DNA from: a virus
Length of the DNA: 44,423 bases
Strand: one strand, 5' to 3'
IMG/VR virus record: IMGVR_UViG_3300009702_000037
Span: 1-44,423 of that record
The notes under the pieces were generated by a model that searched no databases, was not told where the DNA came from, and saw only the letters and a program-made list of their open reading frames with translations. How positions within the stretch are numbered: the stretch's first letter is position 1; each line of letters opens with the position of its first letter. The translations under genes were made by a program, and so were the position numbers. Of the stretch, positions 12,680 to 44,319 are shown piece by piece.

Positions 12680-12680
12680 A

Positions 12681-13748: not shown

Positions 13749-13757
13749 CTATAATAA

Positions 13758-13766
13758 ATTGTATCA
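13758..13766 (-). promoter_or_regulatory. Extended -10 promoter, leaderless type
   Basis: Minus-strand TGATACAAT (TGn plus TACAAT), 9 bases before the ATG at 13748. A TTGACA-like element lies too close to be its -35, so recognition probably depends on the extended -10. Confidence 0.6.
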
Positions 13767-13820
13767 TACTTGTCAATATATCAAGGATGATAAAGGAAGG
13801 AAGTTTAATCTTACCATTTT

Positions 13821-13916
13821 TTACAAACGAAATCCTAGAGATTTTGCCACCATGCCCAATGCCAGAAGTGTATTCATGGCATACAGAAGCCCGACCTCGT
13901 ACCGTTTAAAATACAT
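13821..13916 (-). CDS. Possible 31-aa peptide
   Basis: Short frame with ATG at 13916, 8 bases after the extended -10 TGGTATAAT. Product begins MYFKRYEVGLLYAMN and is hydrophobic and amphipathic, with no known relatives. The promoter spacing is what makes it credible; it could also be a leader or a noncoding RNA start. The rest of the 13767-13820 interval shows nothing recognisable. Confidence 0.4.
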   Translation of the reverse strand: MYFKRYEVGLLYAMNTLLALGMVAKSLGFRL

Positions 13917-13924
13917 TAGAGCGG

Positions 13925-13933
13925 ATTATACCA
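13925..13933 (-). promoter_or_regulatory. Extended -10 promoter TGGTATAAT
   Basis: Perfect TATAAT with TG at the extended position, just downstream of the 3' end of tRNA-Glu and 8 bases before a small ATG frame. Confidence 0.5.
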
Positions 13934-13935
13934 TG

Positions 13936-14009
13936 TGCCCCGTATGGGATTTGAACCCATGATCTTCTGGGTGAAAACCAGATGTCCTAGGCCACTAGAC
14001 GAACGGGAC
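13936..14009 (-). tRNA. tRNA-Glu (TTC)
   Basis: 74-base cloverleaf: acceptor GTCCCGT/ACGGGGC, anticodon loop TTTTCAC (TTC), T-loop TTCAAAT with stem TGGG/CCCA. CCA not encoded. It is adjacent to a small basic gene upstream. Confidence 0.9.
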
Positions 14010-14012
14010 GTA

Positions 14013-14177
14013 TTATCCCTTGTACCCTGAAGCGTAGGCAGCTTTGCCTTGCTGGGCGGCCTTTTTCTTCGCTCGCTCACGAGAAGATTTGTCACCTGCC
14101 TTGTAATAATATTTCTTACCACTCCCCCCCCATTTGGCGTATGGTCCTTTACTGTCTCTCCCTGTTTTGACTGGCAT
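14013..14177 (-). CDS. Small basic protein (54 aa)
   Basis: Product begins MPVKTGRDSKGPYAKWG and ends in QQGKAAYASGYKG, with KYYYKAGDKSSRERAKKKA between. About one third of residues are Lys/Arg, so it probably binds nucleic acid. Short basic proteins of this look recur in phage genomes, but I know no function. Its ATG is 6 bases after an extended -10, and it is followed directly by tRNA-Glu. Confidence 0.7.
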   Translation of the reverse strand: MPVKTGRDSKGPYAKWGGSGKKYYYKAGDKSSRERAKKKAAQQGKAAYASGYKG

Positions 14178-14183
14178 AAATCT

Positions 14184-14192
14184 ATTGTATCA
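14184..14192 (-). promoter_or_regulatory. Extended -10 promoter TGATACAAT, leaderless type
   Basis: Minus-strand TGATACAAT, 6 bases before the ATG at 14177, in the gap after the RNR gene. Same motif as the promoter at 13758. Confidence 0.6.
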
Positions 14193-14208
14193 CTTAGTAC
14201 CTTTGGTG

Positions 14209-18378: not shown

Positions 18379-18459
18379 ATTTGGAAGTTGAGATAAAAAT
18401 CTATCTACAACTTACAGCAAAAATACAGCCCGATGCAATATGACATTTTGTTGATTTTT

Positions 18460-18549
18460 TGGCGGAGAAGATAGGGGTCGAACCTACACGCCAATTTCTT
18501 GACACTAGTTTTCAAGACCAGGGCGATGCCAATTACGCTTTACTTCTCC
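18460..18549 (-). tRNA. tRNA-Ser (TGA) with encoded CCA
   Basis: Class II tRNA with acceptor GGAGAAG/CTTCTCC, anticodon stem CTGGT/ACTAG and loop CTTGAAA (TGA), a long variable arm, T-loop TTCGACC, discriminator G and genomic CCA. Span includes the CCA. It is directly followed upstream by an odd tRNA-like RNA. Confidence 0.9.
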
Positions 18550-18553
18550 ATGC

Positions 18554-18674
18554 CTTTTGTGAGAGAAGGGACTCGAACCCTTTTAGCCTATTGGCCATGT
18601 TTGTATATTCCAGTAGTTGCCAAGACAAAGGCAACGCCATGTGCGACTCGCCATCTTCGCCGCTCTCACAAAAG
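18554..18674 (-). ncRNA. tRNA-like RNA with 12-bp closing stem
   Basis: A canonical T-arm (AAGGG TTCGAGT CCCTT) and a D-arm-like GCGA/TCGC loop containing GG sit on a 12-bp closing stem (CTTTTGTGAGAG and its complement) instead of a 7-bp acceptor. The anticodon-like hairpin GTTGCC/GGCAAC has an 8-base loop, and there are extra bases before it and a long variable region, giving about 112 bases where class II tRNAs have about 90. It may be a degenerate class II tRNA or a Y-RNA-like tRNA mimic, like the three RNAs near 24.2-24.7 kb. Confidence 0.55.
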
Positions 18675-18685
18675 CCGAGACATGT

Positions 18686-18913
18686 CTAAAGTATATCATC
18701 ATCATTTGCGGTAGAGCCCGCTTCTGATGGGGGTTCTTCCCGAGTAAATCGAGGTTTGGTTCCACCCTTTTCGTAAAATCTGTTTTCAAACAATGCAAAG
18801 TTTTCACCTTCCTTGAAAGACACATCTTTTGAAAATTTGATAGACAACATCATGTCGCCGTTTTTGGTCTTTTTCACCCAAGCGGCTGCTATTTGTTCCC
18901 ATTTATCTGTCAT
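18686..18913 (-). CDS. Hypothetical protein (75 aa)
   Basis: Starts MTDKWEQIAAAWVKKTK with ribosome site CGAAAGGGGGTG. Beta-strand-rich middle (GDMMLSIKFSKDVSFKEG) and acidic tail ending NDDDIL resemble small single-strand-binding-like proteins, but the similarity is weak. Lies between tRNA genes. Confidence 0.65.
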   Translation of the reverse strand: MTDKWEQIAAAWVKKTKNGDMMLSIKFSKDVSFKEGENFALFENRFYEKGGTKPRFTREEPPSEAGSTANDDDIL

Positions 18914-18964
18914 AAGTTTTCACCCCCTTTCGTTTGGTTTCGTAATCATTTTTCATGTTTAAGC

Positions 18965-19034
18965 ACGGACGCCTGGGATTGAACCAGGATGATGGGTTTT
19001 GGAGACCCACATGTTGCCAGTTACATTACGCCCG
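18965..19034 (-). tRNA. tRNA-Trp (CCA anticodon)
   Basis: 70-base tRNA: acceptor CGGGCGT/GCGTCCG with G-U pairs, anticodon stem TGGGT/ACCCA with loop CTCCAAA (anticodon CCA), T-arm CCTGG TTCAATC CCAGG. D-arm is short. The CCA tail is not encoded. Confidence 0.85.
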
Positions 19035-19039
19035 CTGAC

Positions 19040-19068
19040 GGGAGGGACTTGTGTCTCTAGCCCCTCCC
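19040..19068 (-). other. GC-rich hairpin next to tRNA-Trp
   Basis: GGGAGGG pairs with CCCTCCC across a 15-base loop, 6 bases upstream of tRNA-Trp on the minus strand. No T-run follows. It may punctuate processing between the nuclease-like gene and the tRNA. Confidence 0.4.
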
Positions 19069-19163
19069 AGTTGAGATATCTCACCTTTGTGCACTCAGGG
19101 ATCTGATTGAAAGAAGGTGATGGTGACAGTACCGCATTGGTACCAGTGAACAATATATCATAC

Positions 19164-19535
19164 TTAGTCTCCGCTGTAACTATCAGTTTTTACTTCCAGC
19201 TCCCTGACCGTCCAGACTTTTCGCTTGCCCCTGGGGCCTCGTTTGGCCCACCCGTGGATTACTATCCTGTTGCCTGCTTTCAACCAAGCCTGACTGTATT
19301 CGTTTTCTAGGATCTTATTCAGCCGAGCTGATACATTGGACCCAGAAGTGGTTTGAATGGCCAGGACGCCGCTCTCAGTGGGCGAGATGGCCACTATATC
19401 TATAAACCCAAACAAGTCTTGGCGGCGTTTAATAAAACTATTCCAATGCTCAGTTATCCCACATAAATAACCCTGGTCTCTCAAGTCCTTTAACGATCTT
19501 TGTGTTGGGGTAGTGGCCATGGACAGTAAACCCAT
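19164..19535 (-). CDS. PD-(D/E)XK-like nuclease or resolvase-like protein (123 aa)
   Basis: The segment DLFGFIDIVAISPTESG followed by VLAIQTTSGSN has the shape of a restriction-endonuclease-like core: an acidic residue in FIDIV and a Q-x-T/S strand replacing the usual E-x-K. Small phage proteins of this type are often annotated as Holliday-junction-resolvase-like. Starts at 19535 or at the second Met 15 bases on (MATTPTQRS). Last gene of the Ro/JAMM/ThiF operon, 9 bases after ThiF. Active-site identity is uncertain. Confidence 0.5.
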   Translation of the reverse strand: MGLLSMATTPTQRSLKDLRDQGYLCGITEHWNSFIKRRQDLFGFIDIVAISPTESGVLAIQTTSGSNVSARLNKILENEYSQAWLKAGNRIVIHGWAKRGPRGKRKVWTVRELEVKTDSYSGD

Positions 19536-19544
19536 ACTAACGCA

Positions 19545-20111
19545 CTACAGTATCTGTTTCAAATATTTCTCACTCCCTACATAACTTTCTTTGTCTCCGT
19601 TTTTTATGTATTGCCCCACTACATTCGACGCCAGACCTGAAACAAACAGAACAAAACCCCTTGCTCCTTGCATCTGGCAAATGTCAAAACCCTCTTCGTA
19701 ATCTGTGGGTGGCTCGTATATCTCGTCCCAAGCTATCTGCAATGTCCGTTGTGGTGACATGCCAACGTGAAGGGTGTTGACGAGTGAATTATTATGGACA
19801 AGACTGCGAGCGAAATGATTGTCGAAACAGTCAACAATAAGATCCCAGTCGCCTTCCAAAATAGCCTTTGTGTCTTCATCTAACTTTTGATTGATAATAT
19901 CTATTTTTTTACCAAGGTCTTTATAGATATTGTATTGTAGCGCCTCAACCTTAAACAGACCAACCTGATCTCTGCGATAGTATTGAGTGCCCGCCGCAAT
20001 GTTGCGATCTTCAACCCTGTCGTAATCTAGTACGGTAACAGAATTATCCCCCGCCAAGATAGACGCAACCCAACTACCAAGTGCTCCTGCGCCCAAAACT
20101 AAAATCTTCAT
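19545..20111 (-). CDS. ThiF/E1-like adenylating enzyme (188 aa)
   Basis: Rossmann-type ThiF/MoeB/E1 fold: GAGALGS glycine loop at residues 7-13, VLDYDRVEDRNI acidic strand at 27-38, VDCFDNHFAR at 93-102 and a candidate thioester Cys145 in DICQMQGARG. At 188 residues it is a minimal E1 without extra domains. Family members adenylate the C-terminus of a Ubl or sulfur carrier, but no Ubl gene lies in this operon. Its start overlaps a small membrane peptide gene (ATGA). Linked to JAMM and SPFH genes. Substrate unknown. Confidence 0.8.
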   Translation of the reverse strand: MKILVLGAGALGSWVASILAGDNSVTVLDYDRVEDRNIAAGTQYYRRDQVGLFKVEALQYNIYKDLGKKIDIINQKLDEDTKAILEGDWDLIVDCFDNHFARSLVHNNSLVNTLHVGMSPQRTLQIAWDEIYEPPTDYEEGFDICQMQGARGFVLFVSGLASNVVGQYIKNGDKESYVGSEKYLKQIL

Positions 20112-20218
20112 TTTTCTCCCATTTTCTTACCAAGCCACCTGGACAATATCAGGGCTAGGTTCATCAAGATAACAAACGCGGGGATGGCAAAAACAAGAAA
20201 GATAATTAGTCTAACCAT
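20108..20218 (-). CDS. Small membrane peptide (36 aa)
   Basis: Starts MVRLIIFLVFAIPAFVIL, a single hydrophobic helix of about 25 residues, followed by a basic tail (SRWLGKKMGEK). Its stop overlaps the ThiF start by four bases and its ATG lies 8 bases after a TATAAT box, so it is probably made from a leaderless transcript. Likely an inner-membrane peptide working with the SPFH protein or ThiF. Confidence 0.7.
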   Translation of the reverse strand: MVRLIIFLVFAIPAFVILMNLALILSRWLGKKMGEK

Positions 20219-20226
20219 ATAGATAT

Positions 20227-20274
20227 ATTATAACAAACTTTTCACATCTTAGCCCACTATTTTTATAGGCTAAG
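20227..20274 (-). promoter_or_regulatory. Promoter with upstream stem-loop shared with the E1 operon
   Basis: TATAAT (20232-20227) lies 8 bases before the peptide gene. Upstream is a perfect 7-bp stem CTTAGCC/GGCTAAG (20248-20274) followed by ATGTGA on the minus strand. The same stem plus AAGATGTGA recurs at 31871-31897 before the other E1 gene. It could be a terminator for the SPFH gene or a protein-binding site controlling both loci. Confidence 0.55.
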
Positions 20275-20342
20275 GGTAAAAAACTAGTTTTGGCAGCTGG
20301 GGTTATTCTCTCCAAACTGGTCTTTTTTAGCTATGAGTTAGT

Positions 20343-21197
20343 TTATTGACCGAGAGCTGGGAAAAAGATACCAGCTTGATCGCTCGTAATAATTTGTGGA
20401 ACTTGCCCCGACCATTTTTTGACCCACTCCATCTCTAAGAATGGTTGGGTAATAGTTTGAGCCTGTAGACGTTGGCGCTCTGCCTCAGCTTCAGCATCTT
20501 TAATCGTGGCCTCTTTGCGAAACTCAGCCTGAAGGGCTTTGTTTTGTTCTGTTTCAACCCGCACGGCTTCTAATTGCTTCTCTTCAATCGCGCTAACGTA
20601 TTGAGGAGAGAACCTGATCTCACGAAGACCAATGCTGTCTAGCACCAGCCCTGCTTCCTCGAATCTGGGTCGTAGCTTTTCCTCGATCTGTTGTGCAATC
20701 TCTTCACCTCCTTCACCAGTGTAGAGTGTGCTTGCCTCATAGTTACGAGGAATGTTGCGCGCCCAAATCCTTGACTCTGTTTTGATTACTTTTTCAACTA
20801 AAGCCTCTTCGCTCCCATATCTGTTCACAATGTTGACCGCTTGTGATCCATCAATCGCAAACCGAATGGTGTAATAGATATCAACACTTTGTCCATCAGA
20901 CGTGTTGGTATCAACAGGGTAGTCTTTGTAGTCAGAATCAGACCCACTTTGCTTCTCTTCGTCAGATGTCTCATAGGTCATCCATCGAGTGTTAAGCCGC
21001 TCTGTCCCGTCAACGAAAGGAATCAAGGTGTGGAACCCAGGCTGAAGTACACGACCAGTAGTCGCGCTAAACCTTGTCACCACTTGGACTGATCCTGCCT
21101 TTACTGTTGTAAAAGCTGACAAAACAACTGCCAGTAAAACCAAGAGAATAGCTGCGCCGATAATTAAACTTCTCAAAAATTTTGCTTCATCTGTCAT
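20343..21197 (-). CDS. SPFH/Band 7 (prohibitin-like) membrane protein (284 aa)
   Basis: N-terminal transmembrane helix (residues 9-31, LIIGAAILLVLLAVVLSAF), then a Band 7 domain: VKAGSVQVVTRFSATTGRVL, QPGFHTLIPFVD, SVDIYYTIRFAID, and a C-terminal Glu/Ala/Gln-rich coiled coil (KEATIKDAEAEAERQRLQAQ). Prohibitin-like proteins form large membrane rings that scaffold proteases and other enzymes. Strong ribosome site AGAGAGGAGGTG; start overlaps the JAMM stop by four bases. It may anchor the JAMM/ThiF/Ro products at the host membrane. Confidence 0.88.
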   Translation of the reverse strand: MTDEAKFLRSLIIGAAILLVLLAVVLSAFTTVKAGSVQVVTRFSATTGRVLQPGFHTLIPFVDGTERLNTRWMTYETSDEEKQSGSDSDYKDYPVDTNTSDGQSVDIYYTIRFAIDGSQAVNIVNRYGSEEALVEKVIKTESRIWARNIPRNYEASTLYTGEGGEEIAQQIEEKLRPRFEEAGLVLDSIGLREIRFSPQYVSAIEEKQLEAVRVETEQNKALQAEFRKEATIKDAEAEAERQRLQAQTITQPFLEMEWVKKWSGQVPQIITSDQAGIFFPALGQ

Positions 21198-21691
21198 TGC
21201 TTGCTCACCTCCTCTCTATGCTCGTTAATTGTTTCTTGTTTTTTAAGAGTCGATCCTAAAATCAACGTGTTGATTACATGGGGAAAGTCGTCTTTCTTCC
21301 GAGTTGTTTTTATCTCGCGGCTCAAGAAAAACTCTCCATCAACTTCCATCGCGACCCATCTGCAATACTGCCAATCGCGACCGTTGACATAAGAGCACAC
21401 CGACATCCTCACGGGGAATGGGTGCAAAACCTTAACCCAGTCTTTCAACATGCCAATGTCTGTTTGACTCAAGCTACCCATGTCTGGGGGGTGAGTGTGT
21501 GCAAACTCGAATACAGAGCCTGGACTTAGTTCATGTAACGCCCAAACCTCTTTCCAGTTGAACTCAACTGATGCCTCGCTCCCGTAATAGATTCTGACTA
21601 TGTTGCCAGACTCCGACAATATCGCCCCAGTCTCGCGATAGAAGTTGTCTCGCCTCCGCTTACTATTCTCTGGTAATGTATAGCCCGCCAT
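21194..21691 (-). CDS. JAMM/MPN metalloprotease (JAB-like, 165 aa)
   Basis: JAB fold with the metal site complete: Glu20 (RETGAILSE), His65-Thr-His67 in FAHTHPPD and Ser75/Asp78 in SLSQTD, the E...HxH...SxxD signature. The family removes ubiquitin-like tags or cleaves isopeptide bonds. The ATG at 21691 follows GGAAGGGGGTG and overlaps the upstream gene by 29 bases; an earlier Met would add 28 residues with no ribosome site. With ThiF in the same operon it suggests a tag/untag cycle. Confidence 0.85.
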   Translation of the reverse strand: MAGYTLPENSKRRRDNFYRETGAILSESGNIVRIYYGSEASVEFNWKEVWALHELSPGSVFEFAHTHPPDMGSLSQTDIGMLKDWVKVLHPFPVRMSVCSYVNGRDWQYCRWVAMEVDGEFFLSREIKTTRKKDDFPHVINTLILGSTLKKQETINEHREEVSKQ

Positions 21692-22535
21692 ATCCGACAC
21701 CCCCTTCCTCTTGGTATATCTTCGACAAATGAATTGCACTTTGAAGAGTATGCTCTTTGTCATGACCAGAGGCACAAAAGCCCAGGTCTATAATAGACAT
21801 CCGATCATTAATCACACTTTTTATTTGAGTTCCGCCAACCTTCCATGTGACCAAATACCTGCCACCAGGTTCTTTGGTGTAAGAAACCAACTCTCCACCT
21901 GCGTTCTCTATTTGGAGTTTTAGCCTGGTTTTGAAGTCGGCCTTGAACTTCTTGATCCAGTTGTGCTTCTGGTCTTTAGAGAGATTCATTTTTAACAAGT
22001 CTTGGTACGCCCGATAACTAGACCTGTATAACCCTTGGCATAAAAAATAATACCGTAACTCTGGTGTGGCGCCTTTTATGTGGTCGATAGATGTCTCTTC
22101 TTCAAATGCTTGCTTGACCTGCTCCACCACTTTTCTATCTCTTGAGTAGTCAATCCCCGCAAAGTAAAGCCGACCATCCTCCCACAAAACAGTTTTTATA
22201 TGATCCCACGATGTAACATTATCTCCTAAGAGAAACCGTGCGGTATTGCCCCCAGTCTTTTTGCGAAGGTTGTTAAAATTAATCGGCACAAACTCATCTG
22301 AAAGCGCCATGCCTGTCAAAACATCCTTCCCCTCGACCACCTCGTCTATCTCCATTAAACTTGCGGGCCGTAACACCTTAACATCGTTGCCTAGCTCTAC
22401 TAGGTACCAGCCATCATTATTATTTGCTTTTATCAATCTAGTTTTGTAGCGCCCCCAATTATTGGACACAGGTAAAACAACTTGTCTCGTTTCTGATAGC
22501 TTAGATAAAACATCCTGCATTTTAGACAATTCCAT
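21663..22535 (-). CDS. Hypothetical protein between Ro and JAMM genes (290 aa)
   Basis: Starts MELSKMQDVLSKLSETR, overlapping the Ro gene by 14 bases. Contains a beta-rich start (RLIKANNNDGWYLVELGNDVK, split here by type), a helical middle (YRSSYRAYQDLLKMNLSKDQ), and a segment VINDRMSIIDLGFCASGHDK near residues 244-263 with a Cys and His pair. No family recognised. The coupling makes a functional tie to Ro likely. Confidence 0.6.
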   Translation of the reverse strand: MELSKMQDVLSKLSETRQVVLPVSNNWGRYKTRLIKANNNDGWYLVELGNDVKVLRPASLMEIDEVVEGKDVLTGMALSDEFVPINFNNLRKKTGGNTARFLLGDNVTSWDHIKTVLWEDGRLYFAGIDYSRDRKVVEQVKQAFEEETSIDHIKGATPELRYYFLCQGLYRSSYRAYQDLLKMNLSKDQKHNWIKKFKADFKTRLKLQIENAGGELVSYTKEPGGRYLVTWKVGGTQIKSVINDRMSIIDLGFCASGHDKEHTLQSAIHLSKIYQEEGGVGYGGLYITRE

Positions 22536-24162
22536 ACCATTCTGGTAACTCTAGTAGTTTGGTGCTCATAATCTCTTCAATGACCACCTCTGGGCCTTTA
22601 ATGGCCTTCCCCAGGGTTTGTGCAACCAGGGCTGACTCACTCAATCTATCAGGTGTGATAGTCACCACTGGGATACCTGCTAATTCATAAACCTCTTTTA
22701 AATACGTAGACGTGCCCTGCCCACCGTTAACAATTATCCAAAGCATTGCCTTGGGCTTTTTAACATCTGGGTTTTGTTCATGATACTTAACAATCCCTTG
22801 TGGTAACGTGCCATCATAATTGTGTCCTCCGTCTGAAATAAAGATGTCTACCTCTGCCCCAAACTCTCTGGCCTCTTGGTAAAGAGCGAAACAGTCAGTT
22901 GACCCCCCAAGGGCTATGCCATACAGCTTGCTGGCAAACGCGTCTTGAGTAAACTCGGGTTGATTGGTTTTAGGATTTCTTGGGAGCTCCATTCTTTGTC
23001 CACCGACTGAGAAAGTTCCCCATGCTAGGTTTTCTTCTGGATTGTTAATCATCTCGGCTATCTGAGAACCTTGGTCTCTAATCACATGGATGGCCCGCTC
23101 CATACTATAACTAGTGTCCAAATGGATAAATGTTTTGCCGATCTCTTTCATCTGTTCTTTGCGGCTCTCAGAGCGCGCAGTCTTCATAACCTCTTTTACT
23201 GCCTTGGTCGCTGAGTCATTGATTAGCTTGGTTCTGTCTAGGGCGGATTTGGCTCCTCTAATTTTATTCTTATATACTTTTAGGAACTCTTCGTCACCCA
23301 ACAGACCTGCATCTTCAAACACACTTCTCAAAATAACAGCTTGCTCAGCCGTGGCTTGCTCCATCAGTGCATAAGCAACCACTGGAGAGACTCGGTCAAG
23401 TGCGCCAACCACCCCGAGAACTGGCAGTTTGTCATTCATTATTTTTTGAGCTATTTGTTTGTCGTCCAACCCATCAAAGTTAAACGGACTATCTGAGAAC
23501 TCGATCGTCTGTCCTTTCTGGTTCCATCGCAAAATAGCGGCGGCCTCATCACTTGGAGACAGCCTCATCGCTCGATAGATGTTTGTGTATTTTTTAGCAA
23601 GCCCAGCCTTTTTAATACCTCGCAAAATAACCAAATTCTTCTCACGATATCTGACATACTTTTTGACAGCTGTTCTCAGAGTAGTCGGAAAATGTCGTGC
23701 AGCATTCAACTCTCCATCTATTCCGTATTTAAGCCCACCCAGCTCGATCACCCTGCCTACTAAGATCGGGGATAGTTTTTGGATTGCCGCCGCTGACACC
23801 ACTCGGAGATTTGGCTTATAGAAATCAGACTCTGGTGAAAACTTTTCCCCGTTAGCTGACGACAGTGAGTTCAAATAAACCATCAATACCTGTAGGTCAC
23901 GAGGCACACTATCTCCCTGTTTAATTAACCAAGAAGTAAAGTGAGCTAAGAAGTATGGATCTTTTTCTGTTAATGGATAAAACTGCTCAATCAACTCAAG
24001 TGCTTTGTCTTTGTTTAACCCTTTGCCTACCACCTTGCCCTCTTCGTCACGGAGTGTCCCCCACATGTGCTTAACCCCTTCAAGCACTGCTTGGTATGCC
24101 TCAAGACGATCAGAGTTTTGCAAATAAGGTAGGTTTGGATTTTCCATTTTTATCATTTCCAT
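22522..24162 (-). CDS. rsr: Ro60/TROVE-domain RNA-binding protein (Rsr-like)
   Basis: A 546-residue Ro protein: helical HEAT-like TROVE ring (about residues 15-335, with VPRDLQVLMVYLNSL and LGGLKYGIDGELNAARHFPT) followed by a von Willebrand A domain whose metal site DTSYS (349-353) is intact, then FISDGGHN. Ro binds misfolded ncRNAs through its ring and Y RNAs on its outer surface, and in bacteria can deliver RNA to PNPase. Start at 24162 (MEMIKM) or 24147 (MENPNL). Three Y-RNA-like genes end 8 bases upstream, and the JAMM/SPFH/ThiF genes follow in the same operon. Confidence 0.9.
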   Translation of the reverse strand: MEMIKMENPNLPYLQNSDRLEAYQAVLEGVKHMWGTLRDEEGKVVGKGLNKDKALELIEQFYPLTEKDPYFLAHFTSWLIKQGDSVPRDLQVLMVYLNSLSSANGEKFSPESDFYKPNLRVVSAAAIQKLSPILVGRVIELGGLKYGIDGELNAARHFPTTLRTAVKKYVRYREKNLVILRGIKKAGLAKKYTNIYRAMRLSPSDEAAAILRWNQKGQTIEFSDSPFNFDGLDDKQIAQKIMNDKLPVLGVVGALDRVSPVVAYALMEQATAEQAVILRSVFEDAGLLGDEEFLKVYKNKIRGAKSALDRTKLINDSATKAVKEVMKTARSESRKEQMKEIGKTFIHLDTSYSMERAIHVIRDQGSQIAEMINNPEENLAWGTFSVGGQRMELPRNPKTNQPEFTQDAFASKLYGIALGGSTDCFALYQEAREFGAEVDIFISDGGHNYDGTLPQGIVKYHEQNPDVKKPKAMLWIIVNGGQGTSTYLKEVYELAGIPVVTITPDRLSESALVAQTLGKAIKGPEVVIEEIMSTKLLELPEWYGIV

Positions 24163-24169
24163 ATAACCC

Positions 24170-24326
24170 TGGCCATTTTTCTATTTCATCTGAGTGAGTG
24201 CTGCTTGATGATGAAAAACATAACTGGAATCGAACCAGCTACTCTGAGATTAAATGTCTCGTGCTCTACCAAATGAGCTATATGCTTGTTAGCAAACACC
24301 TGAGAGATGAAATAGAAAAATGGCCA
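24170..24326 (-). ncRNA. Y-RNA-like RNA 1 (tRNA mimic on a 22-bp stem)
   Basis: Perfect 22-bp inverted repeat (24305-24326 with 24170-24191) encloses a full tRNA cloverleaf: acceptor AAGCATA/TATGTTT, D-arm GCTC/GAGC with GG, anticodon stem around CATTTAA and T-arm GCTGG TTCGATT CCAGT. Position 33 is A rather than the universal U, so it should not decode. It contains the box TGCTAACAAGC and ends 8 bases before the Ro ATG. This is the architecture of bacterial YrlA-type Y RNAs. Confidence 0.82.
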
Positions 24327-26498: not shown

Positions 26499-26541
26499 AT
26501 TATAGCATTAAACAATATGTTTAATTATGATGTGGTATGAT
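26499..26541. promoter_or_regulatory. Divergent leaderless promoters sharing an operator
   Basis: The palindrome TTAAACA-ATA-TGTTTAA (26508-26524) lies between the minus-strand TATAAT (26504-26499) and the plus-strand extended -10 TGGTATGAT (26533-26541). Its AACA-N3-TGTT core matches the operators of the early plus-strand promoters at 40.4-44.3 kb. Confidence 0.65.
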
Positions 26542-27528: not shown

Positions 27529-27558
27529 TTGATAATAATTCTAACATAGTGATATAGT
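27529..27558 (+). promoter_or_regulatory. Amidase promoter, leaderless type
   Basis: TTGATA (27529-27534), 18-base spacer and TATAGT (27553-27558) with TG upstream, 6 bases to the ATG at 27565. No ribosome site present. Confidence 0.7.
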
Positions 27559-28868: not shown

Positions 28869-29582
28869 TCACGACCTGTTTTTACTTGTCTTCCCCAAAA
28901 GTTCCTTCTCATACGCTCGAATGGCCTGCTCATCTTCCTCGGTAAGCTCCCACTCATAGGGGACTCTTTCGTGCTGCCAAGAGTCTTCGCTCCATTCTTT
29001 TTTTTTACCTGACTTGATCCCAAGACCTCCGTTGCCGTAGCCCGCGTACCCTCTGTTATAATTAAATTTGTTCACAACCACCTTCTCGTAGACCTTTTCT
29101 GTCACCTCTTCCTTGACCTCCTCCAAATATGGATTAGCCCTCCTCTCAACCTTGACAGGGCAATGACTAATTGTACATCTAACAGGTTTAAATATATCAA
29201 TCTGAGCTGCAAACTGCTCTCGGTGATTGGTAACAACTGATACCATCCAGTTGTGTGCGTCCATTTCAGAGTCTGAGTCTTCTATCATATCAATGTCTGT
29301 TTGGCTGAAAAACGGCTCCATTGTGTTATGCGAGTGCCACCATAACTTCCAGTCTGAAGGAGATTGTTCGTTATCAATCAAAAAGTTATAGAAATCAGAC
29401 ATCCCTTTGTCTGTGATTTTTGTAGTTGTTTTAGTTACTTCTTGTTCAAGAATGATTACCTCTGTGACAAGAACATAGTCGTCGTATAGCTCGGTCTTGC
29501 CTAATCCGCCGATCTCGTTGTTTGTAGACAACGTATAGGCCATCATCTTGTCATAAGCATCTTCGGTAAATTTAATATCCAT
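28869..29582 (-). CDS. JAMM/MPN metalloprotease of Ubl operon (237 aa)
   Basis: JAB/MPN domain with Glu23 (NEIGGLG), His83-Ser-His85 in WWHSHNTM and Ser93/Asp96 in FFSQTD, an intact JAMM zinc site. After residue 150 comes a Glu/Lys-rich extension and a charged tail. In Ubl operons the JAMM enzyme matures the Ubl C-terminus or removes it from targets; the linked Ubl ends past its VEG motif (EGALS), so trimming would be needed. Three bases after the E2-like gene. Confidence 0.88.
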   Translation of the reverse strand: MDIKFTEDAYDKMMAYTLSTNNEIGGLGKTELYDDYVLVTEVIILEQEVTKTTTKITDKGMSDFYNFLIDNEQSPSDWKLWWHSHNTMEPFFSQTDIDMIEDSDSEMDAHNWMVSVVTNHREQFAAQIDIFKPVRCTISHCPVKVERRANPYLEEVKEEVTEKVYEKVVVNKFNYNRGYAGYGNGGLGIKSGKKKEWSEDSWQHERVPYEWELTEEDEQAIRAYEKELLGKTSKNRS

Positions 29583-29585
29583 AAG

Positions 29586-30896
29586 TTAAGAGGTCATTGA
29601 ATCGTACCACTCCGAGAAAAGAGCTGAGCTGACTGTTGGTCCCCATGAGATTCGATCAAAGGTTATATGGCTCGTTCTTTTTTTGATGCCAAAAAAAACT
29701 GTGTGACAAACATGAAATTGACAACTTTTTATTGGCCGGCTCATTAAAGGAATTGGGATATCAAAAGAGTTGCTTTGCCATTTGTCTGTGGCACGCAACC
29801 TGAGCAGAAAGTCCCCCTTAATATGTCCCGCCTTTATGTCTGCCTTGATTTCAAACTCGACCGCGCACTGCTCTTGCCCCACGTCTATTGTGTTTTTTAA
29901 GGGCTGAATCGCGCTTATCATTATCCCCACGAAAAGATCGTGCAGTTGCAGGGCAGGGTCGCGACCAATTTCAGAAGCCTGTAGGGCATCAAGAATAGAA
30001 CTGATACGGAGACTGCGAGGAATCTGTAGGTAATATCCATTATCCTGTTCGGTCACCTGTTTTTGAGGGTCTGGATCAAACTCCGTTAAGTCGTTTTTGT
30101 TAATATCAAACATCTCTATGGGTGGGGGAGACCACATTATATGTTCCCCTTCTAACTCTGCTCTCAAAATTCTTTGGACCTCGTCTTCGTTAGCTCTTTT
30201 AGCTCCTTCTGTTGCGTGCTCACTGTAAGGCGACGCCTCTCGATTGCTATAAAAGTGGCTATGAGACCTATACCCGTTGTCTGAGTTAGGGGATTTTATG
30301 AAGTCAAGGATGTTTTTAACCATCTCATAAAGGTCTCCATCTAGTAAATTTCTATTAATGTCATCCTGCATGTTCCCCCAGCAAGCAAAACCATCCTCAA
30401 TACATGGAGCGTGGCAATCGCCGCAGGTATACGAAAGATTTACCGTCCTGATCCCGTGTCTTAAAAACTCACTGGGGCGGACTGAAAAATCTATATAGAT
30501 CGCAAACCTTCCTATTTCGTAGTTGTCTACCCCTACATCCTCCTTGTCCAAGCCCCTTACTACCAGTGGGCGCGTCACTATTTTTAATATCACGCCTGTG
30601 TCCCAAGCGACTTTTTCTACATCTGCGAGCCTAGACACTTTGGAAATAGCTCGGCGACCTTGCCTTATAAACTCATCTACATCTATTTTTTCCAAAGATT
30701 CACATACAGCCTTCTGGCGATTATATTTTGAAACCACTTGGTTGACGTCTTCCTTTCTTTCCTCAATAACACGTATAAGCTCGTTCCCTTCGTCAGCAAA
30801 CTCCTTACGCGTCAAAAGAGTTGTAGAAAGTAGTAGTTTTGACATTGTCTCCCTGTCTTTATGTGACAAGGTTGATGCGGCCGCCGAGTTACTCAT
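29586..30896 (-). CDS. E2-like protein of Ubl conjugation system (436 aa)
   Basis: Residues 30-95 are helical (EFADEGNELIRVIEERKED). Then a region with DCHAPCIEDGFACWGN (160-175), matching the (H)PH/C..I..dG..CwGn pattern of bacterial E2-like proteins found with JAB and ThiF; Cys172 is the candidate thioester Cys. The next helix NRNLLDGDLYEMVKNILDFI is typical. The C-terminal half (260-436) is not recognised. It probably takes the activated Ubl from E1 to a target. Assignment is from motif and operon context; the fold should be modelled. Confidence 0.6.
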   Translation of the reverse strand: MSNSAAASTLSHKDRETMSKLLLSTTLLTRKEFADEGNELIRVIEERKEDVNQVVSKYNRQKAVCESLEKIDVDEFIRQGRRAISKVSRLADVEKVAWDTGVILKIVTRPLVVRGLDKEDVGVDNYEIGRFAIYIDFSVRPSEFLRHGIRTVNLSYTCGDCHAPCIEDGFACWGNMQDDINRNLLDGDLYEMVKNILDFIKSPNSDNGYRSHSHFYSNREASPYSEHATEGAKRANEDEVQRILRAELEGEHIMWSPPPIEMFDINKNDLTEFDPDPQKQVTEQDNGYYLQIPRSLRISSILDALQASEIGRDPALQLHDLFVGIMISAIQPLKNTIDVGQEQCAVEFEIKADIKAGHIKGDFLLRLRATDKWQSNSFDIPIPLMSRPIKSCQFHVCHTVFFGIKKRTSHITFDRISWGPTVSSALFSEWYDSMTS

Positions 30897-30898
30897 AG

Positions 30899-31144
30899 CT
30901 AGGAGAGTGCGCCTTCCACGTTCTTGGTTAGAACAATAGAATCACCGTCATTCAGTTCTGATTCCATTGACCCGCTTTCTGAGCTAGATTCACCAGAGCG
31001 GCGGATCTCGATAGCTTCAGAGCTCTTTTTGGTAAGTTGAGCATTTTCCAGTGCAGCTGCTACTGTTGCGCCACTAGGCAAAGCCACTTCAACAGCGGGG
31101 GCCCCGTGACGGAAAATTTTCACAAATATATTATTAGACGACAT
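30899..31144 (-). CDS. Ubiquitin-like/ThiS-like modifier (81 aa)
   Basis: The ATG at 31144 (MSSNNIFVKIF) is 8 bases from a perfect AGGAGG; a GTG 9 bases earlier is inside the ribosome site. Beta-grasp pattern: FVKIFRHGAPAVEV, SGATVAAALENAQL (helix), DGDSIVLTKNVEGALS. The C-terminus VEGALS lacks a free Gly-Gly, so it may be trimmed to VEG or used at another residue. Acts as the tag in this E1-E2-JAMM operon. Confidence 0.75.
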   Translation of the reverse strand: MSSNNIFVKIFRHGAPAVEVALPSGATVAAALENAQLTKKSSEAIEIRRSGESSSESGSMESELNDGDSIVLTKNVEGALS

Positions 31145-31161
31145 TAAATTCACCTCCTTTT

Positions 31162-31815
31162 TTATAAGATGCTAGGGATCGAGAGATCAATGCTGTATTT
31201 ACGAGAACAATGATCTGAGTTGGCATATCTTTTGACTTCAAGCACCACCATTGCTGCCGAAACCATAGAGTTATAAACAATCGCCCGCTGGTCACATCTT
31301 TCACGATGGACACCTTTGTCTACCAATGTTTTCCTGTAATCAGCTATCGCACCTTCGTTCTCTCTGGTCACGGTCAACACCCGAATAAATTCACCAGCCA
31401 TTCTGATATCAATCAGATACTTCCACTCACCCTCGTCGTCTATCCTCTCAAAAATTTTAGACCTACTCGACAAAGAATCTGTTGCAAGCACCACCACTTC
31501 GGCATATTTCATTCCAAGACCGTATTCTGCCCGATCTTGCTCTGGTCGAATTTCTTCACTGGCAATTAACTCTATGTTTTGTTTTAAGGCTGAGACTTTG
31601 CTTTCACCTATTTGTGCCTTGGAGTAAAACTGAGACGCTACGTTGTGAAGCTCCACACTGTCGAAATCCACTACTGTCACTCTCCTGCAACCTAACTTTG
31701 TTAACCCGAGGGCCGCCCAGCTTCCAACTGAGCCAGCGCCTGCAACGCAAATAGTAAAACTAAGCCTGCCTGGGTCGATAATCCCTGTTTGTCTTTTAAA
31801 CAACTCATCATCCAT
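31162..31815 (-). CDS. E1-like activating enzyme (ThiF family, 217 aa)
   Basis: Rossmann E1 core: CVAGAGSVGSWAALGL (glycine loop 26-32), VVDFDSVELHNVASQ (acidic strand), VVLATDSLSSR, and candidate catalytic Cys174 in RERCDQRAIVYNS. At 217 residues it is a minimal single-domain E1. First gene of the operon with a leaderless promoter. It would adenylate the Ubl C-terminus and pass it to the E2-like protein. Confidence 0.85.
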   Translation of the reverse strand: MDDELFKRQTGIIDPGRLSFTICVAGAGSVGSWAALGLTKLGCRRVTVVDFDSVELHNVASQFYSKAQIGESKVSALKQNIELIASEEIRPEQDRAEYGLGMKYAEVVVLATDSLSSRSKIFERIDDEGEWKYLIDIRMAGEFIRVLTVTRENEGAIADYRKTLVDKGVHRERCDQRAIVYNSMVSAAMVVLEVKRYANSDHCSRKYSIDLSIPSIL

Positions 31816-35202: not shown

Positions 35203-35393
35203 ATGAAAAACAGAAGGGAAGTGGGGATTAATGTCATACGTTAATTGGGACGCCACCAGTAAAAGACCGCAAAAGAGAAATCTTGAAAGAGATCACCCAA
35301 AACTGGGGAGTTCTTACTCTCCGCGATATTGCCGAAAGGGTAAACATGCCCCAGAAAGAAGTCTACAAAGCCTTGAAAAAGAAGTACGATTAA
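35203..35393 (+). pseudogene. Frameshifted helix-turn-helix regulator
   Basis: An ATG at 35203, 9 bases after TACTAT, opens a frame (MKNRREVGINVIR) that stops at 35242. A -1 shift there leads into KDRKREILKEITQNWG followed by VLTLRDIAERVNMPQKEVYK, a clear HTH motif, ending at 35393. No ATG exists in the HTH frame before this. Either a programmed or accidental frameshift, or translation from a rare start. Confidence 0.55.
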
Positions 35394-35408
35394 ACAATAT
35401 GTTACAAT
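35390..35408 (+). promoter_or_regulatory. Operator-promoter of the small membrane gene
   Basis: TTAAACA-ATA-TGTTACA, the AACA-N3-TGTT operator core, overlaps TACAAT (35403-35408), 7 bases before the ATG at 35416. Same layout as the four promoters of the 40-44 kb array. Confidence 0.6.
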
Positions 35409-39812: not shown

Positions 39813-40459
39813 GCGCCCCAGATGGGCTGAGAAGGGCGGGGAATAGGGAAATCGGGGGTATGTGTGGATTGTGAGCGTGAAGTGGACCTGGAGTGGTAAG
39901 GGAAAGGATGGTGGCAGAAGGGAGAGGTGGGTGAAGTTGAGGTGGGGAAGTATTTTTGTGGGGAGAGTGGGGTATATCGGTGAACCGCTACCGTTCATTA
40001 TATTCTGGCGGGGGTCTCCCCCACCCCCCCGTGCGCATAAAATGTCGCACATTGTGCAATGTGCGACATTATTTGAGTTCAAAATTCAAAAATTGCGCGG
40101 GCGTGTTCATTTATAGGCGGGGAGCGTGGCAAGCGACCATATAATAGTCTGATTGTGCAGGGTTTGAGTGTGGGAGTGTGTGCGTTATGGGAGTTGCAAG
40201 CCCAGAGGCTGATTGATTTATTGAATGGTTATATATATATGTTATTTTGTGTGTGTAGCCCGCATTTTTGAACCATCGCGCGCCACCTCAAAAATTGCGC
40301 AGAATTGGGTTTGAGGCTGAGGCGTTCAAATTGTGGTATTTTTTGCATGCACTGTAAGTCATGAGGGTTGATAATAATTGATTGGGGGGCATTTGAGGCG
40401 GCCGTCATTATGAAGGTTTGAGGGTGTAGCCCGCGTTATTGACTAACTATGCTATATAC
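39813..40459. other. Noncoding region with G-rich run, palindrome and repeats
   Basis: No supported gene in about 650 bases. 39830-39990 is strongly G-rich and C-poor on the plus strand with several GGG/GGGG runs. GGGGG-TCT-CCCCC hairpin at 40010-40022. A perfect palindrome at 40041-40070. The 13-mer TCAAAAATTGCGC occurs twice (near 40085 and 40290). AT-rich tract at about 40230. These fit a replication or regulatory locus. Confidence 0.5.
40041..40070. repeat. Perfect 30-base palindrome
   Basis: AATGTCGCACATTG and CAATGTGCGACATT, 14-bp arms around TG. It can form a cruciform or bind a dimeric protein. No gene starts near. Confidence 0.85.
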
Positions 40460-40488
40460 TTGACAATTATATAACAATATGTTATAGT
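40460..40488 (+). promoter_or_regulatory. Early promoter P1 with operator
   Basis: TTGACA, 17-base spacer, TATAGT. The spacer and -10 contain TATAACA-ATA-TGTTATA, a 7-3-7 palindrome. Copy 1 of 4 of the element. Confidence 0.85.
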
Positions 40489-40516
40489 ATATTCATATTG
40501 ATAATTGAATAAATAT

Positions 40517-40762
40517 ATGAATAAATTTTCAAAACGCCATTATGAAGCCGTCGCCGTGTTGCTTGCTGATAAAATAAACCAAACAAGAGCGCGCGGGACT
40601 AAATACGAAATTGAACACTTACCCCATGACCTTGCGTATATTGAGGATTTTGCACAGCTATTCAAATCTGATAGTTCAAAATTTGATGGCGGGCGGTTTG
40701 TAGATCGAATAAATAAATTGTCTAACTCTAATATACTGGGTAACTATCCCTTGACAAAATGA
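40517..40762 (+). CDS. Hypothetical early protein (81 aa)
   Basis: ATG at 40517 (MNKFSKRHYEAVAVLLADKI); a TTG at 40505 would add four residues. Basic and helical. 28 bases after P1. Overlaps the next gene by four bases (ATGA). No family recognised. Confidence 0.6.
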   Translation: MNKFSKRHYEAVAVLLADKINQTRARGTKYEIEHLPHDLAYIEDFAQLFKSDSSKFDGGRFVDRINKLSNSNILGNYPLTK

Positions 40763-41016
40763 AGCTAGATATGAAAAAACACATAGCAAAAGTAGACAAA
40801 TGGCACAAAGAAAAAGGAAGGCGGGTATATGACAGCTTTAAATCTTTGTGTGGAATAAGGGCCGAGTCATTTGAAGAAGCCAAAAGCAAGGGTTTTATGA
40901 AATCTCTATCACCAGACAACAAAGACGGTTGTAAGACTTGCCAAAACATCATGTCAAATACTCGTTACTGGAAAGAATATAGAAAAATATCAACCGCAAA
41001 AAGAAGGTATGTATGA
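40759..41016 (+). CDS. Hypothetical protein with two Cys (85 aa)
   Basis: Starts MKLDMKKHIAKVDKWHKEK. C-terminal CKTCQNI is a CxxC pair. Basic. Coupled to both neighbours by ATGA overlaps. No family recognised. Confidence 0.6.
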   Translation: MKLDMKKHIAKVDKWHKEKGRRVYDSFKSLCGIRAESFEEAKSKGFMKSLSPDNKDGCKTCQNIMSNTRYWKEYRKISTAKRRYV

Positions 41017-41126
41017 CTAGAACGGGGAATAGAACACGCCGTCTTGGTCTGAGCAAGTACCGCGCGCGATGGTTTATAAGTGAAATAGACAAGGAACTAG
41101 ATACCAATAACCCTACCCGCAACTAA
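41013..41126 (+). CDS. Small basic peptide (37 aa)
   Basis: Product begins MTRTGNRTRRLGLSKYRAR, then WFISEIDKELDTN. Its ATG overlaps the previous stop (ATGA). Terminator follows at once. Plausible nucleic-acid-binding peptide. Confidence 0.55.
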   Translation: MTRTGNRTRRLGLSKYRARWFISEIDKELDTNNPTRN

Positions 41127-41140
41127 TACGGGTATTTTTT
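41114..41140 (+). terminator. Intrinsic terminator after P1 operon
   Basis: TACCCG pairs with CGGGTA across nine bases, followed by six T. Ends the three-gene P1 transcript. Confidence 0.6.
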
Positions 41141-41230
41141 GGGTCAATCATGACTTATATATAGTTATATATGCCCACCGTCGACGCGGGTATCTGAGAA
41201 TGGAGCCGTTGCAATTAAAGCAAGCGACCT

Positions 41231-41255
41231 CATAAGTGAACTATAAGCACTTATG
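41231..41255. repeat. Inverted repeat CATAAGTG/CACTTATG
   Basis: Perfect 8-bp arms with a 9-base spacer in the 226-base gap before P2. Possible operator. The rest of the gap has AT-rich stretches only. Confidence 0.45.
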
Positions 41256-41313
41256 CATACAGATTAATAGAATATAGTTATATAGTCAACTAGTGACTAA
41301 CTATGTCAAGTAG

Positions 41314-41342
41314 TTGACAATTATATAACATTGTGTTATAGT
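41314..41342 (+). promoter_or_regulatory. Early promoter P2 with operator
   Basis: TTGACA-17-TATAGT with TATAACA-TTG-TGTTATA. A second dyad TGTCAA-GTAG-TTGACA overlaps the -35. Start codon lies 10 bases past the -10, so the mRNA is nearly leaderless. Confidence 0.88.
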
Positions 41343-41352
41343 AATATATAAG

Positions 41353-42030
41353 ATGAATAATATACAGCGCACAGCGCATGTCACCATAGGCTATACAGAA
41401 TATACAGTATCAGAGGGTACCGTTGCGAAACTATTAGAGATTGTGGAAGGCGGGCGCGCTTGTAATATGTGCCATCAACTATTCAATAATAGCGATAGAT
41501 ACGCCGTCACATTGAACGCTTGCAAGGCTTGTGTGATGGGTACACACCAGGTAGCCGACTATATAGGCGGGTTTGATGATACTAGACACGAATTTATAGA
41601 TGATAAAGGCGATATATTGACATGTGACGCGCGATATAAAGGACTACCAGAGCGCGACATGATCCGCACATTGAACCATTACGGCTTCATAGTGCCGACC
41701 GATAACAGACACCAACACAACTACTATATTTATAGTGGAGATAAAACGCGCGATAAGTGGCTACTAGTAAAATATAGCGACCAACACGGCGGAGGTTGGG
41801 ATAGTGGCAAGGGCGCATTTGTACCGTTGGAAGTATACTACTTATGCAATAAAGACGGTAGTTATACAGAATTAAACAAGAGGCGCGGGGATTGGCAAAA
41901 ACTAATGAGGGAAGCCCGCGATTTGATACCAGACGACGGGTCACGCTGGATACAACGCACGAGGGAAGATAAAGCAATTGAACTATTAAACCAACGCGCG
42001 GATGATTATACCGTCGCGGATTTTCAATAA
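41353..42030 (+). CDS. Zinc-finger-containing early protein (225 aa)
   Basis: Starts MNNIQRTAHVTIGYTEY. Two CxxC pairs (CNMC near residue 37 and CKAC near 57) form a likely treble-clef/zinc ribbon. The rest has YIYSGDKTRDKWLLVKYSDQ and HGGGWDSGKGAFVP, a beta-rich domain. No family recognised. First gene after P2. Confidence 0.65.
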   Translation: MNNIQRTAHVTIGYTEYTVSEGTVAKLLEIVEGGRACNMCHQLFNNSDRYAVTLNACKACVMGTHQVADYIGGFDDTRHEFIDDKGDILTCDARYKGLPERDMIRTLNHYGFIVPTDNRHQHNYYIYSGDKTRDKWLLVKYSDQHGGGWDSGKGAFVPLEVYYLCNKDGSYTELNKRRGDWQKLMREARDLIPDDGSRWIQRTREDKAIELLNQRADDYTVADFQ

Positions 42031-42031
42031 T

Positions 42032-42640
42032 ATGAGCGACTATATAAAGATGTCTACCAATTTAATACCAGTATTTGGTGGGACGTATGGCAATATATGG
42101 GACGATATAGCCGACTATACAGACAATGGTGAGGAAATTTGTATACAGCCCTCAAACCTGATTGAAGCTATCACCGACTTATACAAAAATAATACAAAAT
42201 ATATACTATCTGAAATTGTGGGTTGTGGTGTTGATTTTATTACTGAGTTCAAAATAACGGGCGGATACTACAGCCCGCGTGAATACAATTTTCATACTAA
42301 TACTATAGACGTTGATATTAAAGTAAACCGTAGAAAACTACTAAATAAAGCCCGCGAGCTATGCAATAGCGACGATTTCACAAACTATTTGCATGACAAC
42401 TATACAAGCATGAGCGGGTTTATATCATACACACCGAATAATAAAATAGAACTATTGGAGCAACTAGAAACGCAAGGCGATGAATACGAGCAATCTATAG
42501 GCGCGATTATTACCTATTTATTGGGTGATACAGCCCGCGAAATTGAGTTGAGATTGTGGGAAGATTGGTGCGGGAACGGATACGGAATACTGGAATACGA
42601 TCTAATATGCGGTGAATGTGGGAAGGTGGTGATTAAATAA
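42032..42640 (+). CDS. Hypothetical early protein (202 aa)
   Basis: Start at 42032 (MSDYIKMSTNLIPVF), 1 base after the upstream stop. Ends YDLICGECGKVVIK with a C-terminal CxxC. AGCCCGC words occur in it. No family recognised. Confidence 0.6.
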   Translation: MSDYIKMSTNLIPVFGGTYGNIWDDIADYTDNGEEICIQPSNLIEAITDLYKNNTKYILSEIVGCGVDFITEFKITGGYYSPREYNFHTNTIDVDIKVNRRKLLNKARELCNSDDFTNYLHDNYTSMSGFISYTPNNKIELLEQLETQGDEYEQSIGAIITYLLGDTAREIELRLWEDWCGNGYGILEYDLICGECGKVVIK

Positions 42641-42927
42641 TGAAGATAACAGTCAGTATATACAATTTCCTTAACGCTTTCAAAAAAGATGATGGCTTCT
42701 CCTATGAGGGGCTTAAAGTTCTCTACGACCACCTACTAGAGTTAGAGGAAGACTTGGGAGTAGAATTTGAACTTGACCATGTAGCTATTCGTTGTGAATG
42801 GTCAGAATACGAGACTATCGAAGAATGCCTAGAGGACTTTACAGATATAAAAAATAGGGAAGAATTAGAAGAAAAAACTACAGTCCTAGACATAAACGGG
42901 GGTGGCATTATCATGGGAGAATTTTAG
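42640..42927 (+). CDS. Hypothetical acidic protein (95 aa)
   Basis: Starts MKITVSIYNFLNAFKKDDG; helical, acidic (LEDFTDIKNREELEEKT). Its ATG shares the last base of the upstream stop (TAATG), so it is coupled. No family recognised. Confidence 0.6.
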   Translation: MKITVSIYNFLNAFKKDDGFSYEGLKVLYDHLLELEEDLGVEFELDHVAIRCEWSEYETIEECLEDFTDIKNREELEEKTTVLDINGGGIIMGEF

Positions 42928-42933
42928 TAGGCT

Positions 42934-43125
42934 ATGGAAGCATACGAGCAAAGCAATACGGACGAAAATTGGAAGTCTGAGTGTCATGTGCTAAATAAAG
43001 ACGGCGGCATGTTGTGCAAGCCTTGCCCGATGTGCGGATATGGATATGGTAGTCAGTGGCTATATAGACCAATACATAAAAATACAGCCCGCGCGATATA
43101 TAAACCACTATCTGCTAATGACTAA
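42934..43125 (+). CDS. Small zinc-ribbon-like protein (63 aa)
   Basis: Starts MEAYEQSNTDENWKSECHVL; contains CKPCPMCGYGYG, a zinc-knuckle-like motif. Ends with the P2 operon. No family recognised. Confidence 0.55.
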   Translation: MEAYEQSNTDENWKSECHVLNKDGGMLCKPCPMCGYGYGSQWLYRPIHKNTARAIYKPLSAND

Positions 43126-43129
43126 CTAG

Positions 43130-43158
43130 TTGACAATTATATAACATTATGTTATAGT
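43130..43158 (+). promoter_or_regulatory. Early promoter P3 with operator
   Basis: TTGACA-17-TATAGT with TATAACA-TTA-TGTTATA. ATG begins 9 bases after the -10. Confidence 0.88.
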
Positions 43159-43167
43159 ATAGACAAT

Positions 43168-43482
43168 ATGAAACTAATAACCAAAACACTATTAAAGCAA
43201 CTACCACCATTGTACAGTCAAGAAAATGAAGCCGACCCAATAGTGATAGTAAAGTATTTCAACCCAGTGGGGAATGGCAATTGGTTTGGAATTGAATACG
43301 ACCCTAGCGAGCGGATATTTTTTGGGTATGTTTCACTATTTGGTGACTACAATGACGAGCTAGGCTATTTCAGCTTGGATGAACTGGAAAGTATAAAGGG
43401 ATGGGGAGAACTAGGGATTGAGCGCGATTTGCATTTCAAGCCGACTAGATTGAGTGAAATTAAAAAGCAGTACACGCTATGA
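43168..43482 (+). CDS. Hypothetical early protein (104 aa)
   Basis: Starts MKLITKTLLKQLPPLYSQEN. Contains WFGIEYDPSERIFFGYVSLF, a beta-rich DUF2958-like pattern (family of small phage/plasmid proteins). Overlaps the next gene by four bases. The DUF2958 link is tentative. Confidence 0.6.
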   Translation: MKLITKTLLKQLPPLYSQENEADPIVIVKYFNPVGNGNWFGIEYDPSERIFFGYVSLFGDYNDELGYFSLDELESIKGWGELGIERDLHFKPTRLSEIKKQYTL

Positions 43483-44270
43483 ATAAAACTATCACCATTA
43501 AAAAAACGGATGACATTATGGAAATGATTGAAGCCGTTGATAAAGCCCGCCGTGAGCTAGGCAATACTGCCGTTCAACTAGTATTCAGTGAACCCGTAGA
43601 ACTAAGGCACGGTAAGCGCATGAGTGCGACCTCAACTAAAACAAATCATGACATAACTAGATTATTTATACACGGAACTACACTATGCCAAGTACCGACC
43701 AGAAATAAAGTTAGTGGCTATCCAATTGATAATCAAACTATTGAAAAACTACTACGAGTGGAAGTAAAGCAAATAAGCGCGGACTATTCTAGGGAGTGGC
43801 GACGGATTGCCAAGAGTATGCGAAAGTATAATATAAATTTGGGTGTAGCCCGCGATATTGAGGCGCATTTGCGCGGGGATGAACCGCACATCAAAGGTTT
43901 TCAAAACTATTGGACTAAAAACGATAAGCCACGGACTACTTCATTCAGAGATGTACTAATATATAACGGCATTGCAAGATATGAAATGGAAACGGGAGTA
44001 ACATACCAGTCACGAGAGCTTGAAAAACTAAGAACTATCAAACTAAACAATGAGGCTATACCGACTATGATTGCAAGAGCTAGGGAAAGTGCAGGCAAGT
44101 ATTACCGTGCTAGCAAAAGCGGACACCGACGTGATAGATCAGTCGCGCTATCTGTAAATAGTGATGGTGATGTGGGCTATCATTCTGCTAGTGAGTATGC
44201 AGGATGCCTCAACGGTGACTACTATGTAATGTACAGCCCAACTATGGCATTTTATGCTGAAACTGACTAG
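43479..44270 (+). CDS. Hypothetical early protein (263 aa)
   Basis: Starts MNKTITIKKTDDIMEMIEAV; helical, basic (KYNINLGVARDIEAHLRG; MIARARESAGKYYRASKSGH). No family recognised. Coupled to the P3 gene. Confidence 0.6.
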   Translation: MNKTITIKKTDDIMEMIEAVDKARRELGNTAVQLVFSEPVELRHGKRMSATSTKTNHDITRLFIHGTTLCQVPTRNKVSGYPIDNQTIEKLLRVEVKQISADYSREWRRIAKSMRKYNINLGVARDIEAHLRGDEPHIKGFQNYWTKNDKPRTTSFRDVLIYNGIARYEMETGVTYQSRELEKLRTIKLNNEAIPTMIARARESAGKYYRASKSGHRRDRSVALSVNSDGDVGYHSASEYAGCLNGDYYVMYSPTMAFYAETD

Positions 44271-44290
44271 TGGCTAACTATGTCAAGTAG

Positions 44291-44319
44291 TTGACAATTA
44301 TATAACATTATGTTATAGT
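44291..44319 (+). promoter_or_regulatory. Early promoter P4 with operator
   Basis: TTGACA-17-TATAGT with TATAACA-TTA-TGTTATA and the TGTCAA-GTAG-TTGACA dyad. ATG 10 bases after the -10. Nearly identical to P2 over more than 40 bases. Confidence 0.88.

Follow-up and report, generated by a model that had tools for sequence, protein, structure and literature searches.

Transcription units at the right-hand end of the phage contig

The DNA analysed, called the window here, was the whole of virus record IMGVR_UViG_3300009702_000037 (44,423 bp), in which the virus genome is probably incomplete. Near its right-hand end four rightward transcription units follow in succession, one headed by each of four promoter cores, P1 to P4. 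P1 (40460-40488, + strand) heads ORFs from 40505/40517. The unit behind P2 (41314-41342, + strand) contains four ORFs (41353-43125, + strand), for which no Pfam or PADLOC function was found where searched, and the unit behind P3 (43130-43158, + strand) encodes a DUF2958 protein and a 263-aa protein without known function (43168-44270, + strand). The contig end at 44423, 104 bp past P4 (44291-44319, + strand), cuts off the fourth unit. Searches for relatives of the 263-aa protein and of a 225-aa protein, both putatively early, found none. The earlier note had called these promoters early, which position and gene content make probable.

The same region carries two further repeats. The octamer AGCCCGCG occurs seven times on the + strand of 40428-43847, at both coding and non-coding sites, where 0.02 occurrences were expected and at most one was seen in 300 shuffles; it never occurs on the - strand of that region and only once elsewhere in the window. 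A perfect inverted repeat with 14-bp arms and a 2-nt loop, AATGTCGCACATTG-TG-CAATGTGCGACATT, lies in non-coding DNA before P1 (40041-40070).

No DNA similarity of the window to phage records was found, and neither replication genes nor an integrase were recognised among the families searched. Distant relatives of the portal protein were present in 7 of 379 genomes of one small-genome phylum, which is a lead to the host only. Four tRNA genes (Pro, Glu, Trp, Lys) are located amid - strand genes at 10859-24287, and a 1389-aa protein (14209-18378, - strand) was read as a putative ribonucleotide reductase that appears to be interrupted by two intein-like insertions; its homolog in the relative G002 is about half as long. 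A ubiquitin-like conjugation operon (28869-31815, - strand) has ThiF/E1-like and JAB genes among its members, together with a small protein presumed to be ubiquitin-like and a protein without known function in the presumed E2 position. A homologous operon was found in G002 (54178-57308).

Four copies of one promoter core with a perfect dyad

The 29-bp core TTGACA-ATTA-TATAACA-NNN-TGT-TATAGT was found four times in the window, at 40460, 41314, 43130 and 44291. All four copies contain the perfect 17-bp dyad TATAACA-N3-TGTTATA in fixed register to the promoter, located at 40470-40486 in P1 (centre ATA), 41324-41340 in P2 (TTG), 43140-43156 in P3 (TTA) and 44301-44317 in P4 (TTA). What was read directly from the DNA comprises the core sequence, its four copies, the dyad with its register and the spacing to the start codons, and the description of P1 to P4 as sharing TTGACA-17-TATAGT plus the dyad motif was confirmed exactly. 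The operator had also been placed within the spacer; it lies mostly there, beginning 4 bp after the -35 element, but extends 4 bp into the -10 element (TGT/TATA).

The surroundings of the cores were also compared. The unit around P2 (41289-41366, + strand) is 92% identical over 78 nt to that around P4 (44266-44343) and 64% identical to that around P1 (40435-40512), which bears out the claim of near identity between P2 and P4 over more than 40 bases and supports copying of the cassette. An upstream box, TGACTAACTA, is common to all four copies, with one substitution in the P4 version (TGGCTAACTA), and in P3 the distance from this box to the -35 element is shorter by about 10 bp. The common box, the gap in P3 and the P2/P4 identity indicate that the four cores are copies of one ancestral cassette, and the identical dyads therefore count as about one independent event. 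Within the cores only the three-base dyad centre varies, while the flanks have diverged.

A TANNNT -10 element about 10 bp before the start codon is a sign of leaderless bacterial genes (PMC3160421). From the -10 element to the ATG there are 10 bp at P2 (ATG 41353), 9 bp at P3 (43168) and 10 bp at P4 (44330), in no case with a Shine-Dalgarno sequence, and with this spacing the P2 to P4 mRNAs should be leaderless. Such starts are common in this phage as a whole: -10-like boxes were present 4-11 bp before a start in 11 cases, and a Shine-Dalgarno-like motif was present at 8 of 67 ORFs.

Evidence that the dyad may be an operator

The right half-site TGTTATA doubles as an extended -10 element (TGnTATA), so promoter function alone could keep the right half; the left half has no promoter role, and a regulator is thus needed to explain the left half only. 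An alternative explanation needs no repressor: an early promoter that is strong and constitutive (TTGACA, 17 bp, extended -10) would have been duplicated before accessory or host-takeover genes, and its dyad would be incidental. This would agree with the extended -10 and with the common ancestry of the copies, but the left half is wholly conserved and changes are found only in the dyad centre, as expected if a dimer binds the operator. In simulations, a 7-bp dyad arose by chance in 1-3% of random promoters of the same shape, which also argues against an incidental dyad. By our own calculation, the probability that both variable spacer columns land in the dyad centre by chance is about 0.02 (3/136).

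A motif scan of the whole window, which the earlier note had proposed, gave 12 matches to the operator with up to 3 mismatches, compared with a mean of 3.1 in shuffled sequences, and the only four perfect matches were the P1 to P4 sites. When permuted motifs were scored in the fixed register at 13-14 other leaderless promoter candidates, TATAACA was top of 105 by summed score; by the count of promoters with at least 5 matches (the divergent pair counted once), three other motifs ranked equal with it. Since this test was devised after the sites had been seen and some of the ORFs counted are doubtful, the ranking is suggestive only.

Further candidate sites in the window

The strongest extra operator candidate in the window is TCTAACA-TAG-TGATATA at 27540-27556, with 2 mismatches, which the first reading had missed. 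It is located in the 37-bp gap between the divergent leaderless genes 27527 (-) and 27565 (+), and its half-sites coincide in register with -10 elements on both strands, TATAGT (+) and TAGAAT (-). This arrangement, with flanking genes starting 6-10 bp away, would suit the reading that the dyad is no operator at all but a pair of extended -10 elements placed back to back for divergent transcription. At P1 to P4, however, the reverse strand has neither a suitably spaced -35 element nor a divergent gene, and we consider this reading very unlikely.

Two other cores had been described as overlapping promoters, and one of them is in register. The degenerate candidate TTAAACA-ATA-TGTTACA (35390-35406, + strand) is in exact register with the TACAAT -10 element of gene 35416, a leaderless gene with its ATG 7 bp past that element. 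TTAAACA-N3-TGTTTAA (26508-26524, - strand), a good dyad in itself, lies upstream of gene 26491 (-), but the TATAAT -10 element of that gene is 5 bp further on, leaving the dyad out of register. The earlier note had joined these cores with P1 to P4 in a regulon of six loci. With the extra sites degenerate, one of them out of register, and the operator absent from the majority of the remaining + strand units between 34.8 and 39.8 kb, a wider regulon beyond P1 to P4 is weakly supported.

Candidate regulators

An RHH protein (39088) and an XRE protein (28253) encoded in the window had been named as candidate regulators. Both belong to DNA-binding families, and a profile search detected other RHH-like ORFs in the relatives G001 and G005. 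Repression of P1 to P4 by either protein nevertheless seems unlikely: no operator was present upstream of either operon in this incomplete genome, searches of three relatives found neither sequence, and the XRE gene is the last of a long operon with a promoter different from P1 to P4. The RHH protein had one weak phage match, no relatives in viral contigs and weak matches only among solved structures, where the XRE protein had none. Nothing specific speaks for the RHH or the XRE protein as the regulator.

The third candidate, a broken HTH gene (35203), does correspond to a frame at about 35235-35392 on the + strand that is winged-HTH-like (PF13412, 23.1 bits where the cut-off is 21.9) and lacks a start codon, but nothing ties this frame to the operator. 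The TAA that ends the frame lies within the 35390 dyad. As no replication genes or integrase were recognised among the families searched, the repressor may be encoded in the missing part of the genome.

Repeated promoters in relatives of the phage

The portal search recovered relatives at identities of 53-63% and, in one short match, of 67%. Of the 21 that were searched, many of which are short fragments, 0 contained the exact operator. G001 has two 2-mismatch matches only. It does have five copies of another promoter, TTGACA-N3-TTGACAACTTATG-N-TATAAT, at about 47301, 48750, 49316, 49619 and 52069, in a region whose genes include those for an ArdA-like protein, an amidoligase and a glutamine amidotransferase. 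Its conserved spacer, TTGACAACTTATG, differs from that of P1 to P4 and is not obviously palindromic. Leaderless-type spacing was also found in G002, and the repeated promoters of G001 have longer leaders, several of them with Shine-Dalgarno motifs. The structural genes of the window are conserved in the relatives, and no homologs of its early-region genes were found in their DNA examined. With an unrelated repeated promoter in G001 and none in most relatives, control modules of this kind seem to be gained and replaced quickly in this phage group.

The same element in bacteria and viruses

The element also occurs in bacterial genomes, where TTGACA-N4-TATAACA-N3-TGTTATA had 25 exact matches, 22 with a -10 element ending in T. 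In 12 of the 25 the element is directly upstream of a BlaI/MecI-like gene, all in Lachnospiraceae, Eubacterium or one bacterium without a name, and 5 of these 12 have a second half-site pair just downstream. Two representative BlaI/MecI-like proteins matched Penicillinase_R (E < 1e-21). The element in front of these repressor genes would most simply be an autoregulatory operator, and TATAACA-N3-TGTTATA looks like an operator of BlaI/MecI-family genes of Lachnospiraceae and Eubacterium. Moreover, a Dehalococcoidales contig has the same operator in front of a small ORF; we read this ORF as RHH-like, although without a Pfam match, which would lend something to the RHH candidate of the window. The regulator family of the phage cannot be read from the operator sequence, and no PF03965 (BlaI/MecI/CopY) protein was found in the window or in three relatives. 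That the early units are under a host-encoded regulator, through a copied host-type operator-promoter cassette that would read a host signal directly, appears highly improbable.

Viral contigs contained 10 exact matches of promoter and dyad; a version with the left half scrambled had 18 and a different palindrome 2, so an operator common to viruses generally was rejected. These counts agree with the constitutive-promoter explanation, whereas the identical elements before repressor genes in other genomes argue against it.

In weighing the operator we counted in its favour the perfect dyads in fixed register, the variation confined to the centre, the 1-3% chance frequency, the 12 of 25 BlaI/MecI-type matches, the first place of TATAACA among 105 permutations, the leaderless spacing and the analogous five-copy promoter of G001. 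Counted against it were the extended -10, which explains the right half, the single ancestral event behind the four copies, the lack of a site in most other + strand units, the relatives without the exact operator and the lack of viral enrichment. Each line of evidence is modest alone, but together they favour an operator. We regard it as reasonably probable that a repressor operator was copied together with the promoter, blocking initiation at all copies together; a duplicated constitutive promoter with an incidental dyad is a real but minor possibility.

Proposed mechanism and comparison with known systems

From these features of the DNA we infer protein binding, repression, early timing and the identity of the regulator. 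A promoter-operator cassette would have been copied several times ahead of accessory, probably early, transcription units, and a host sigma-70-type RNA polymerase would use its strong promoter. A dimeric repressor, probably encoded by the phage and probably in the missing part of its genome, would bind the 17-bp dyad. Once bound, it would lie over the spacer and the first bases of the -10 element, and initiation would be blocked at all copies together. The idea that a repressor would block polymerase directly agrees with this geometry, as a protein on the dyad would occlude RNA polymerase. P2 to P4 would be transcribed as leaderless mRNAs. If this is true, copies of a whole promoter-operator cassette are a means by which a phage can bring recently acquired accessory genes together in one regulon, and the finding would provide a small set of leaderless promoters of the repressor type that lends itself to testing, in a phage group that is otherwise unstudied.

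The operators of lambda-type CI and Cro are 17 bp long, have a 7-3-7 layout and lie in the early promoter. The P1 to P4 sites share the length, the layout and the place in a probably early promoter and have a partial half-site similarity (TATxAC), which is a lead only; unlike in lambda, no divergent repressor/Cro switch region was found in the window. In phiC31, repressor sites occur at multiple early promoters, and the PeSL promoters of T4-type phages move as cassettes with accessory genes. The likeness to both, in repeated early promoters with sites and in mobile cassettes, respectively, is one of layout.

In cluster A mycobacteriophages (L5, Bxb1), one repressor acts at 20-30 dispersed operators or stoperators (PMC6550527, PMC1934351). 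As in these phages, a repressor-type site is repeated across the genome, where in L5 and Bxb1 at least one overlaps an early promoter, and the sites differ between close relatives. However, the mycobacteriophage sites, to which a monomer binds, are asymmetric, 13-14 bp long and for the most part not in promoters, whereas those of P1 to P4 are symmetric, 17 bp long and, where perfect, always inside a promoter, and thus are not stoperators of the L5 type. The resemblance to operators of the BlaI/MecI/CopY family (PF03965) lies in the identical element before such genes in bacteria. The published operator of this family, TACANNTGTA or RNYKACANNTGTMRNY (PMC7253601), has a spacing that differs from TATAACA-N3-TGTTATA, and with no PF03965 regulator found in the window or in three relatives the phage units do not qualify as an operon controlled by that family. 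On the other hand, one site at several promoters, here in four exact copies, is one mark of multi-copy promoter-operator systems of phages. The mechanism is an ordinary one for phages; in layout the system is like phage control systems already described and does not constitute a new type.
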